A stretch of 64,000 bases of DNA from contig CASDWE010000002.1 of NCBI GenBank assembly GCA_949284685.1, positions 660,106-724,105 on the forward strand, given 5' to 3'. Below the pieces are notes generated by a model. It was not told the DNA's origin. It saw nothing but the letters and a program-made list of their open reading frames with translations, and searched no databases. Numbering within the stretch: the stretch's first letter is position 1; each line of letters starts with the position of its first letter. A program made the translations under genes and the position numbers. The stretch comes from an uncultured bacterium (lineage in GTDB: Bacteria > Bacillota_I > Bacilli_A > RFN20 > CAG-826). This document shows, piece after piece, positions 46,297 through 50,279 of this stretch.

Positions 46297-47127
46297 ATGG
46301 AATTGAATAAAGGTTTTATTTATATACCCAAAAACGCAAATAAAAATAAAGTCAAATATTTATGCATAGCCGCTCATCAAGATGATGTTGAAATCATGGC
46401 GTATCATGGAATTTTAAAAGGATGGTTTTCAAAAAAATATTCTTTTAGTGCGGTTGTCACTTGTGATGGTGCTGGTTCAGCAAGAACTGGTGAATTTAAA
46501 GATTATACTGATGAAATGATGAAAAAAGTTAGAATCAAGGAACAGCAAGAAGCTAGTGAAATAGGTAAATATCATTCTTTATATATGTTAAATTACACTT
46601 CCGCGGAAGTTAAAAATAAAGATGATGATAGCGTCATTAATGACTACATTAATATCATTAAAGAATTAAGACCAGAAGTTATTTATACTCATAATTTATT
46701 AGATAAGCATCCTACTCATCTTGGTGTTGTTATTAAAGTTATCAAAGCATTAAGAAAATTAGATAAAAAATATCATCCTAAAAAAGTGTTAGGATGTGAG
46801 GTATGGCGCGATTTAGATTGGGTTGATGATGATTTAAAATATGTTTTAGATGTATCAAAAAAACCCAAACTTGCTAAAGATATATTAAATGTATATAAGT
46901 CACAAATCATAGGTGGAAAGCGTTATGATTTAGCAACAATTGGAAGACGATACGCAAATGCGACATACGCTGCTTCTCATAGTGTTGATAAAGCTAAAAT
47001 GGTTAATTTTGCTATTGATTTAACACCTTTAATAAATTCTACAAATCTTGATATCAAACAATATGCACTTAATTATATTGATAAATTTTATCAAGATGTT
47101 AAAAACCAATTAACGGAATTAATATAA
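46297..47127 (+). CDS. PIG-L family N-acetyl-sugar deacetylase
   Basis: 276 residues. The zinc motif is AAHQDDVE (His27, Asp29, Asp30) and the third ligand lies in HPTHLGV. These LmbE-like enzymes remove acetyl groups from GlcNAc-containing molecules, including diacetylchitobiose in archaea and bacillithiol/mycothiol precursors elsewhere. No signal peptide, so the substrate is intracellular. As the last gene of the operon with a SIS deaminase, it would feed glucosamine to that enzyme. Bacillithiol synthesis (BshB) is unlikely here because no bshA/bshC partner is near. Confidence 0.85.
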   Translation: MELNKGFIYIPKNANKNKVKYLCIAAHQDDVEIMAYHGILKGWFSKKYSFSAVVTCDGAGSARTGEFKDYTDEMMKKVRIKEQQEASEIGKYHSLYMLNYTSAEVKNKDDDSVINDYINIIKELRPEVIYTHNLLDKHPTHLGVVIKVIKALRKLDKKYHPKKVLGCEVWRDLDWVDDDLKYVLDVSKKPKLAKDILNVYKSQIIGGKRYDLATIGRRYANATYAASHSVDKAKMVNFAIDLTPLINSTNLDIKQYALNYIDKFYQDVKNQLTELI

Positions 47128-47196
47128 CATTTAGCAAATATTACATTTTTATTAATAAAAATTTTAAAAATATTTTTCATATGTTTTTTGCATTAA

Positions 47197-47240
47197 AGTG
47201 TTACAAATTCAAAATTATTTTAATTTTATAACACATAAAT
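47197..47240 (+). repeat. 44-bp palindromic direct repeat, left copy
   Basis: Identical in 43 of 44 positions to 48501-48544. The unit is itself an imperfect palindrome with ends GTGTTA and TAACAC. It ends 37 bases before the ATPase 2 start codon. Confidence 0.9.
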
Positions 47241-47277
47241 GCGTTTTTTGTGATATATTATATTCGAGGCCAATAGT

Positions 47278-48501
47278 ATGTTAATCAAAAGAAAACAATA
47301 TTTAGAAAATATTAGAAGATTTTATGAATCCAATTTAATTAAAGTTTTAACTGGTGTAAGAAGATGTGGCAAAAGTGTTTTGCTAAATCAAATTAAGGAG
47401 GAATTACTAGCGGAAACTAAAATAAGAGAAGATCATATTATATCTATCAATTTTGAAGATATTAAATTTTCTAAAATTAAAAACTGTAATAAATTAAATG
47501 ATTACATATTAAAAAGAATTCTTGATGAGAATAAATATTATATTTTCTTAGATGAAATTCAACATGTTAGACAATTTGAAAAAGTACTAGCGTCTCTTAA
47601 AGCAACTAAAAATGTATCTATATTTGTGACTGGTAGTAACTCAAAGCTATTATCAGGCAAACTTGCTAGTCTACTTGTTGGTAGATGCAAAGAGTTTAAG
47701 ATAATGCCATTTAGTTATAGCGAATTTGTTAAATACTATGAGGAAAATGGATTAATACTTCCAAATAAACCTTTGCAAAACTACTTGCGATTTGGTGGAA
47801 TGCCTCAACGTATGGATTATAATTTGGAAGAAGACATTAAAGAATATTTGAAATCTATTTATTATGGAATTATTGACAAAGATATATGTAACGCTAAGTC
47901 TAAAATAGATAAAGAGACATTTTTTACGATATCTAAATATATTATAAGCAATGCTTCTAAAGAGTTTTCGACATCTAGTGTTGTCGAATATTATAATAAA
48001 AACAACTCAGATAAGATTTATAGTGAAAATGTTTATAGATATTTAGATAAATTAGAACAAGCGTGTTTAATATCTAGAGTAAAAAGATATGATATTTCTA
48101 GCAAAAGAACATTAAAACATATCGAAAAACAATTTGTTGTTGATAATGGGTTTTTGCTTGCTTGTAATGATTCTAATAAAATATTGATATCCCATGCTTT
48201 AGAAAATCTTGTTTACAATGAATTGATATTTAGAGGATACGATGTTAAGATTGGTAAAACTTATAAAGGAGAAATTGATTTTGTTGCTATAAAAGATGGA
48301 AAAAAATGTTTTATACAAGTAGCGTATTTATTAGCAAATGATGATGTGATAAAAAGAGAATTTGGTGCTTTTGATTCTGTTCGTGATCCATCGCCAAAAT
48401 ATGTATTTAGTTTAGACGAATATGATATGTCTATGAAAGGAATAACACACTTTAATATTGAAGATTGGCTTTTAAATAGAGTCGATATATTTTTATCATA
48501 A
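47278..48501 (+). CDS. AAA family ATPase with DUF4143-type C-terminal domain (ATPase 2)
   Basis: 407 residues. Walker A GVRRCGKS (26-33), Walker B IFLDEIQ, sensor-like IFVTGSNS. The nuclease-like C-terminus shows EIDFVAIKDGKKCFIQVAYL: the acidic pair is kept but the Lys of the PD-(D/E)XK core is replaced (QVA), so it may bind rather than cut DNA. GAGG lies eight bases before the ATG. The gene sits exactly between two copies of a 44-bp palindromic repeat; the right copy begins on the last base of its stop codon. It is closely related to ATPase 3, which follows on the other strand. Confidence 0.85.
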   Translation: MLIKRKQYLENIRRFYESNLIKVLTGVRRCGKSVLLNQIKEELLAETKIREDHIISINFEDIKFSKIKNCNKLNDYILKRILDENKYYIFLDEIQHVRQFEKVLASLKATKNVSIFVTGSNSKLLSGKLASLLVGRCKEFKIMPFSYSEFVKYYEENGLILPNKPLQNYLRFGGMPQRMDYNLEEDIKEYLKSIYYGIIDKDICNAKSKIDKETFFTISKYIISNASKEFSTSSVVEYYNKNNSDKIYSENVYRYLDKLEQACLISRVKRYDISSKRTLKHIEKQFVVDNGFLLACNDSNKILISHALENLVYNELIFRGYDVKIGKTYKGEIDFVAIKDGKKCFIQVAYLLANDDVIKREFGAFDSVRDPSPKYVFSLDEYDMSMKGITHFNIEDWLLNRVDIFLS

Positions 48502-48544
48502 GTGTTACAAATTAAAAATTATTTTAATTTTATAACACATAAAT
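48501..48544 (+). repeat. 44-bp palindromic direct repeat, right copy
   Basis: Matches the left copy at 47197-47240 with one mismatch (C to A at position 14). It starts on the final A of the ATPase 2 stop codon and could also act as a weak terminator hairpin. Confidence 0.9.
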
Positions 48545-48656: not shown

Positions 48657-48699
48657 TATATATAATGATTTTTATAAATAGTGGAGCAAATCGCAAAAT
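48657..48699 (+). repeat. Degenerate copy of a promoter/ribosome-site segment
   Basis: About 37 of 43 bases match 50237-50279, the segment bearing the -10-like TATAAT, GGAGG-like site and start of the lipoprotein at 50278. Here GGAGG has become GGAGC and the ATG is lost. Confidence 0.65.
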
Positions 48700-48749: not shown

Positions 48750-49949
48750 TTAATATTCATCATTTAAAAGAAAATCCGCTAAATGGATAATTTTAATACC
48801 TTTAATATTACCTGACGCTAGTTCATCTAGAGTTATTATATATTTTTGATAATTATCTTTGATTTCAAGAAGATTATCAATTTCTCGATTCGATATTTCT
48901 GGCAATCTGCTGCATACTTGAATATAGATACGTTCGTCACGCCTTACTGCCACAAAATCAATCTCTTTTGTCTTGTTTTTTCCAATGTATACTTCATATC
49001 CTCTTCGGCGTAGTTCAAAATATACGATATTTTCTAACATGGCAGCAATGGAGGTAGGATTAAAACCCATCATACAATATTTTAAAGAAGTGTCGGCTAG
49101 ATAAAATTTTTCCTGAGTTTTTAGTATGGATTTCCCTTGTAAGTCATATCTTTGACAACGATAAATTACAAATGCTTTTTCTAGCCAGCTTAAATAATTA
49201 TAAATTGTTTCTATAGATAAAGATCGACCTTCACTTTTAAGAAATTTAACAATTGAATTAGCTGAAAAAGTTTTACCAACGTTTTCTATTATGTATTTAA
49301 CAACGCAGTTAAACAAATCGATATTTGTGACATTGTGTCGTTTTGTTATATCGTTAGTAATCACTGAATTATAGATTCCTTCTACAATCTGATATGCGGA
49401 GTGTGCATCAAAATTACCTATTGCTACTATTGGGAATCCACCAAAACGTATGTATTCATTTAGCAAATCTTTCGGTGATTTTAAATCTTGTTTTTTAAAA
49501 TCTAGATATTCTAAAAAAGACAAAGTATAGACAGGTATTGAAATATATCGTCCTGTTAAATAGGTAGATATTTCGCTAGACATTAGTTTAGAATTAGAAC
49601 CAGTCACATAAATATCGCTATTAGTGTGTTCTAATAAACTATTTATTGCTTTTTCCCAACCAAAAATTTCTTGCACCTCATCTAGCAGTAAATAATAACG
49701 TTTATCGTCTATCATTTGTTTTTTGATATTATCATACATATCTTTATCAGTCATGCCATTATCAAAATCTTCTGAAGTGTATGAAACACTAATTATATGA
49801 TCTAAACTAATTCCGCTTTCAACCAAATCATCACGTAGCATATCTAAAATAGTTGATTTACCGCAACGTCTAATTCCCGCTAATATCTTTACAAGCGGAA
49901 CATCGCGATAGGTTTTTAACGTTTTTAAGTAGTATGGTCTTATGATCAT
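48750..49949 (-). CDS. AAA family ATPase with DUF4143-type C-terminal domain (ATPase 3)
   Basis: 399 residues. Walker A GIRRCGKS (25-32), Walker B LLLDEVQE, sensor-like IYVTGSNSKLMS. The C-terminal EIDFVAVRRDERIYIQVCSRL keeps the acidic pair but, as in ATPase 2, has QVC in place of the EVK of active nucleases. GAGGAGG is well placed before the ATG. It is tail-to-tail with ATPase 2. A 31-bp-arm inverted repeat lies just upstream of its start, and the gene lies between two copies of a 43-bp promoter-like segment. Confidence 0.85.
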   Translation of the reverse strand: MIIRPYYLKTLKTYRDVPLVKILAGIRRCGKSTILDMLRDDLVESGISLDHIISVSYTSEDFDNGMTDKDMYDNIKKQMIDDKRYYLLLDEVQEIFGWEKAINSLLEHTNSDIYVTGSNSKLMSSEISTYLTGRYISIPVYTLSFLEYLDFKKQDLKSPKDLLNEYIRFGGFPIVAIGNFDAHSAYQIVEGIYNSVITNDITKRHNVTNIDLFNCVVKYIIENVGKTFSANSIVKFLKSEGRSLSIETIYNYLSWLEKAFVIYRCQRYDLQGKSILKTQEKFYLADTSLKYCMMGFNPTSIAAMLENIVYFELRRRGYEVYIGKNKTKEIDFVAVRRDERIYIQVCSRLPEISNREIDNLLEIKDNYQKYIITLDELASGNIKGIKIIHLADFLLNDEY

Positions 49950-49984: not shown

Positions 49985-50055
49985 AAAAAACTTATGAAAT
50001 TTGAATAGTTTTTACTTTTCAAACGTAAAAACTTTATAAAATTCAAAACTTTTTT
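49985..50055. repeat. Long imperfect inverted repeat upstream of ATPase 3
   Basis: Arms 49985-50015 and 50025-50055 match in 25 of 31 positions around a nine-base centre; the inner GTTTTTAC/GTAAAAAC is perfect. It begins 35 bases before the ATPase 3 start and could be a protein-binding site overlapping its promoter. Confidence 0.7.
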
Positions 50056-50236
50056 ATATATAGACAGAAAGATAATTAAAATTTTATGAAATATTTGTGT
50101 GTAATTAGTATTTTGATACAATTTTATATAATCTTATCACGAGTGTTATAAACTTAAAATATTGCAAACAAATAAAAATTTAGCACGGCTTATATAAATA
50201 AAATTGAATATTTTTCACTTTAACTTGCATCTTGCA

Positions 50237-50279
50237 TATATATAATGATATTTATAGAAAATGGAGGAAATCATAAAAT
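50237..50279 (+). repeat. Promoter/ribosome-site segment, intact copy
   Basis: Contains TATAAT-like sequence and GGAGG ten bases before the ATG at 50278. Its degenerate twin is at 48657-48699, on the far side of ATPase 3. Confidence 0.65.

Follow-up and report, generated by a model that had tools for sequence, protein, structure and literature searches.

The accessory genes for AAA_14-DUF4143 ATPases (COG1373) are widespread and unexplained, one surveyed genome having as many as 19 matches, and COG1373 is listed among the clusters of orthologous groups (COGs) of horizontally transferred gut genes (PMC10782964). In the open-access literature, the sole paper found with the term "DUF4143" concerns Thermus Argonaute, and we found no described function or flanking palindromes. 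No paper joining DUF4143 with palindromes was found there either, subscription papers and preprints being outside this search. Here we describe a gene of this type, bracketed by two palindromic direct repeats, in a 64,000-nt stretch of DNA from an uncultured bacterium of the CAG-826 lineage (contig CASDWE010000002.1, positions 660,106 to 724,105). The whole stretch is called the window, and the gene with its repeats the cassette.

Several described systems resemble the cassette in part. The insertion sequences (IS) of the IS200/IS605 type and the repetitive extragenic palindromic (REP) sequences with their REP-associated tyrosine transposases (RAYT) are also small single-gene units with a palindrome near either end. 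However, the cassette protein is of AAA+/winged-helix/PD-(D/E)XK-like build without HUH Y1 match, the unit is not high-copy, and its empty sites (genomes G001, G112 and G117) retain one palindrome. Integrative elements with attachment (att) sites, integron cassettes and pdif cassettes share with it two direct core copies when occupied and one when empty, whereas the cassette, with a 37-nt palindrome specific to its gene subfamily, has no tyrosine or serine recombinase. For REP or terminator repeats many gene-independent copies are expected, but there are 2 in this genome, and 1-3 strong places in each genome with the palindrome. By the features that define them, the unit is neither an IS200/IS605 element, nor an integrase-type element, nor a REP. 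Homing endonuclease genes are likewise single genes with a nuclease-like domain and site-specific empty alleles, but insertion of the cassette leaves the site intact and two full sites flank the gene. Among solved folds, archaeal SSO1545 and Orc1/Cdc6 on origin DNA (2fna and 2qby) come nearest; they combine AAA+ with a winged helix and, in Orc1, bind DNA; however, the TM-scores are low (0.49 and 0.33), and nothing seen links the cassette gene to a replication origin.

The cassette is composed of the following features.

47196..47240, no strand: upstream direct repeat, 45 bp, made of the palindrome (47198-47234) with 2 nt on its left and 6 nt on its right

47229..47234, + strand: TAACAC, the final 6 nt of the upstream palindrome, placed at the -35 position by its spacing to the -10 box

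47254..47259, + strand: predicted -10 box TATATT of the cassette gene, agreeing with TATAAT at 5 of 6 positions, 19 nt downstream of the palindrome

47278..48501, + strand: cassette gene, encoding a 407-aa AAA_14 ATPase, winged helix and DUF4143 (PD-(D/E)XK-like) protein, read from Pfam, AlphaFold2 and conserved residues

48500..48544, no strand: downstream direct repeat, 45 bp, overlapping the stop codon, with the palindrome at 48502-48538

The two repeats start 1304 bp apart and differ by a single mismatch (C/A). A gap of 37 bases separates the upstream repeat from the ATG at 47278, and the downstream repeat begins within the TAA stop codon (48499-48501). Each includes a 37-nt imperfect palindrome, GTGTTACAAATT[C/A]AAAATTATTTTAATTTTATAACAC. 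When up to 3 mismatches were allowed, this pattern matched twice in the window against 0.00 matches expected (100 dinucleotide shuffles), and the same two matches were the only ones in the whole 1.11-Mb genome, the reversed control giving none. A preliminary description of the locus had already placed the copies 37 bases before the start and on the stop codon, with one mismatch and a palindromic build (GTGTTA...TAACAC), and in all this it was right; its length of 44 bp was one short of the 45 bp measured. The genome-wide search that it proposed returned only these two copies in 1.11 Mb.

Judged by sequence comparison, the gene bracketed by palindromes is an inherited architecture. Close homologues of the cassette protein (67-87% identical) occur in many uncultured Bacilli-type genomes. 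In nearly all of them, about 20 at unrelated sites, a similarly built 37-nt palindrome lies upstream, with 32-51 nt between its end and the ATG; a second one is usually present, beginning 0 or +1 nt behind the stop codon. The palindrome sequence differs from locus to locus (GTGTCAC..., GTGTTAC..., GTGCCCC..., CGTTAC...), while the two copies within one locus agree at 29.6 of 37 positions versus 25.8 after re-pairing (p about 5e-5, in a test that ignores relatedness). The arms covary too: changes on both sides were found in 12 of 17 pairs, with 35 such cells versus 16.3 in shuffles.

A TATAAT-like box (at least 4/6) follows the upstream palindrome in 21 of 25 homologues with a spacing of 15-19 nt, mostly 17-18 nt, so the end of this palindrome occupies the -35 place. 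No -10-like box at fixed spacing was found at the downstream palindromes of the homologues. The upstream palindrome is probably the operator through which the cassette gene represses itself.

The cassette gene is horizontally mobile, and the palindromes coincide with the edges of the unit. Through the comparison of 77 homologue pairs with at least 72% gene DNA identity, we found a mean identity of 0.79 in the gene and 0.77/0.69 in the palindromes, 0.35/0.34 in the flanks 11-40 nt beyond them, and 0.32/0.31, which is background, further out. The units L052 and L181, for example, have 94% of the gene in common and no similarity outside. Exceptions were L148/L185, with about 170 bp of left flank in common, and L067/L068, with the right flank in common. 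The cassette proteins of G162 and G264, from different genera, are 96.6% identical versus 69.4% for RpoB, and those of G082 and G161, from different families, 93.4% versus 74.0%; over 120 pairs, the correlation between cassette-protein and RpoB identity was 0.16. Since rpoB and the element lie on one contig in G162 and in G082, misbinning is no explanation for these two. The viral contigs searched held no palindrome and no close relative of the protein, and in phages only distant relatives were found. Among plasmids, 232 records held distant relatives, and ten plasmid and phage regions inspected had no paired palindromes. Of Acinetobacter plasmids, 174 records hold a distant AAA_14-DUF4143 gene, and the two inspected had no paired palindrome.

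A site with one palindrome and no cassette was found in the sister species G001, whose RpoB domain is 100% identical and whose site flanks are 95-96% identical to the window. Its single repeat copy shares 43 identical bp with the upstream repeat of the window and lies between the genes that border the cassette in the window:

46297..47127, + strand: PIG-L deacetylase gene, left neighbour of the site, 98% aa identity in G001

48750..49949, - strand: second AAA_14-DUF4143 gene, bordering the site on the right; 36% identity with the cassette gene and, in G001, 95% nt identity

In genus g17, G118 carries the unit, and G112 and G117 have one palindrome each at the orthologous place; these two solo palindromes differ by a paired arm change. 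A covariance model of the palindrome, run on 273 genomes of the order, detected it in 55 genomes, with 1-3 strong places in each. About 15 of the positives are pairs about 1300 bp apart and about 20 are solo copies without an intact gene. The solo palindromes, which are intergenic in nearly all cases (one overlaps a doubtful 95-codon open reading frame, ORF), resemble empty sites of the ATPase cassette, or what is left of it. That they are promoter sites of adjoining genes was rejected, because nearly all are intergenic and few have a good -10 box.

The preliminary description regarded the cassette as gained or lost by recombination or by its own activity. The first part agrees with the one-palindrome sites, among them the single-copy empty sites of G001, G112 and G117 for which it suggested looking, and with the exact boundaries and the transfer; for the second, no known recombinase domain was found. 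It also named wide occurrence of the repeat without the ATPase, as a general terminator or REP element, as an argument against a cassette. In many relatives the palindrome is indeed present where the ATPase is absent, but at few intergenic places per genome, which is not the manner of a REP or terminator.

Some sites of this palindrome have other neighbours. In G259 (L171 5028-6019) a gene for a 198-aa membrane protein stands between two palindromes of this type, 955 bp apart, and G027 has one solo palindrome (L170 4951-4987) at the site occupied in G259. A noncoding stretch of about 350-500 bp, from the 3' end of a tRNA gene to the palindrome, is common to L185, L149, L146, L147, L150, L161 and L164; the tRNA gene varies (Phe, Lys, Leu, Ala) and the ATPase gene is present or absent. 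The same stretch occurs without tRNA in G037 and G072. A search on the far side of the sites next to tRNA genes gave no att repeat of a tRNA tail.

The cassette protein is a clear member of the AAA_14-DUF4143 family, with both domains above the curated cut-offs in one chain: AAA_14 scored 117.9 bits (3.9e-34, cut-off 27) and DUF4143 43.7 bits (3.1e-11, cut-off 28.1). Only AAA_14, DUF4143 and ATPase_2 matched in the Pfam scan, and no HUH Y1 transposase. The AlphaFold2 model (pLDDT, the predicted local distance difference test, 91.5) may be read, by our interpretation of its secondary structure, as an AAA+ domain followed by a winged helix (about 212-287) and, at the C-terminus, a restriction-endonuclease-like fold. 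The Walker A/B residues K32, D92 and E93 are intact in 99-100% of 127 related genes, across which Q95, E309, E332, D334, Q347 and E361 are also conserved. As for a PD-(D/E)XK active site, E309, D334 and Q347 are kept in these genes, but Q-V-A/S/T/C replaces (D/E)-X-K.

We also compared the DNA upstream of the start with that at the stop codon in 127 AAA_14-DUF4143 genes and 263 other genes, taking a score of at least 40 as a strong match. Strong matches were found in 18/27 close homologues, 7/25 genes at 40-60% identity and 6/75 below 40%, versus none of the 263 control genes. The repeats of distant paralogues (for example L223, with 41/41 identical, L205, L214, L039 and L168) are unrelated in sequence. 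In the unrelated Schlafen-AlbA_2 family, 5 of 27 genes had long matched iteron-like repeats of up to 80 bp at both places (L306 in G044, L298 in G125, L277 in G042, L299 in G087 and L289 in G029). By our own arithmetic, the exact probability against the controls is about 1e-4 for the paralogues below 40% and about 5e-6 for AlbA_2. In most cases checked the downstream copy does not lie closely before the start of another gene, so it is not simply the operator of the next gene; this was less clear for L299, L209, L148, L289, L223 and L039, which have a short or nearby ORF. The top control gene, a Fic gene (L168 571-1621) with similar upstream and stop-codon sequences, scored 36.

From the repeats, their fixed places, the matching within loci, the boundaries, the transfer and the one-palindrome sites, all of which are observed, we consider, with a probability of about 0.5, that this is a one-gene mobile unit at whose palindromic ends the encoded protein acts. 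Such a unit, of about 1.35 kb, would run from palindrome through promoter and ATPase gene to palindrome. The AAA+/winged-helix/PD-(D/E)XK-like protein would bind its own palindrome, and at the upstream copy, by covering the -35 box, it would repress its own promoter. Recombination between the two palindromes would remove the gene and leave one copy; the single palindrome of a putative excised circle could then recombine with a solo palindrome of a genome, by which the gene would be inserted and two copies formed. The protein probably pairs the palindromes and may cut or remodel the DNA there, and host recombination would complete the process. This account is favoured by the exact boundaries, the one-palindrome sites and the paired arms in solo copies. 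The operator geometry, the AAA+ and winged-helix fold, and the layout that some distant paralogues and AlbA_2 genes show with unrelated repeats, but none of the 263 controls, also speak for it.

Several results weigh against it. No tyrosine or serine recombinase was found in the unit, whose sole gene encodes a protein without known recombinase domain. Nuclease activity of this protein is doubtful because the usual Lys of (D/E)XK is absent, and on the conserved residues DNA cleavage by it is uncertain. The downstream copy was scored degenerate or shifted in 8 of 24 homologous units, in which the gene is intact, and many distant relatives, plasmid-borne ones included, are without paired repeats. 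In the genera of G112 and G090 we found no site lacking both palindrome and gene, the flanks being too poorly conserved, so that insertion itself was not observed.

An alternative is that the palindromes are paired regulatory sites of an ordinary accessory gene, which is transferred by general means and lost by RecA-type recombination. It is favoured by the absence of a recombinase, by the doubt over the active site, by the degeneration of downstream copies and by the parallel in AlbA_2 genes. The upstream site would serve self-repression, and the site on the stop codon would add DNA looping or block transcription into or out of the gene. This agrees with the upstream copy on the -35 box, with the winged helix in the protein and with the same layout, built of iteron-like repeats, in the unrelated AlbA_2 family; plain recombination between 45-bp repeats would also suffice for the one-palindrome site of G001. 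However, in nearly every pair that occupies different sites the similarity ends within a few bases of the palindromes, an outcome not expected from general transfer, and solo palindromes retain paired arms where the gene is absent. We hold this explanation to be rather unlikely, although it and the mobile unit are the two accounts that survive.

Less probable still, and in our opinion improbable, is that some other recombinase uses the palindrome as attachment site or hotspot and that the ATPase is one of several cargoes landing between two copies. The membrane-protein gene within the G259 pair, with the solo copy in G027, would fit it, as would the palindromes downstream of different tRNA genes with the ATPase present or absent. 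The palindrome sequence, however, follows the ATPase subfamily, unrelated paralogues having unrelated palindromes, and beside the sites inspected, whose neighbours were not systematically surveyed, we noticed no recombinase gene in common. A reading of the repeats as chance duplicates of a transcription terminator or of an RNA hairpin at the end of a gene is very improbable and was rejected, as was a REP, on genome copy number (2) and promoter geometry: a hairpin of 15-17 bp can be drawn and one copy follows each of two genes, but its stem is A+T-rich, the G+C-rich stem and U tract that mark an intrinsic terminator are absent, the upstream copy precedes the -10 box and is thus untranscribed from that promoter, and copies match within the locus.

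If the palindromes are the ends of a mobile unit, the cassette represents a new category, and perhaps gene movement without a classical transposase; if they are paired regulatory sites, it has an unusual regulatory layout. Ends made of dedicated palindromes recognised by the encoded protein would explain the ready spread and loss of AAA_14-DUF4143 genes, and operator and ends together would give the first functional handle on them. We might speculate further, with somewhat less confidence than for the cassette itself, that one-gene mobile units of this kind form a large class not recognised so far. Its members would encode a DNA-binding protein without known recombinase (AAA_14-DUF4143 and, separately, AlbA_2-HATPase), with a gene-specific palindrome or iteron set serving upstream as the operator and on the stop codon as the other end, and would be moved or lost through these ends. 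A comparison of the sequence before each start codon with that at the stop codon would serve to test for the pattern in any genome collection.

Next to the cassette, the second ATPase gene has a palindrome of its own immediately upstream:

49985..50055, no strand: separate 71-nt imperfect palindrome

It is a probable operator of this gene, and no matching copy was found at the stop codon of the gene. A 43-bp repeat (84%) at 48657-48699 and 50237-50279 represents a promoter plus ribosome site; the copy at 50237-50279 precedes a short lipoprotein-like reading frame and that at 48657-48699 is a remnant. As a bracket of an AAA_14 gene this repeat was rejected, being a duplicated promoter and ribosome site. 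At 50143-50186 of the window, GTGTTATAAACTTAAAATATT...TTTAGCAC may be a cassette-type palindrome that has decayed. When the other AAA_14 genes of this genome (G000) were checked, flanking repeats were mostly absent. One of them (C2:843960) is flanked by a 27-bp non-palindromic direct repeat with one mismatch, located 422 bp before and 140 bp after the gene (C2:843481 and 845357) and present in just two copies genome-wide.
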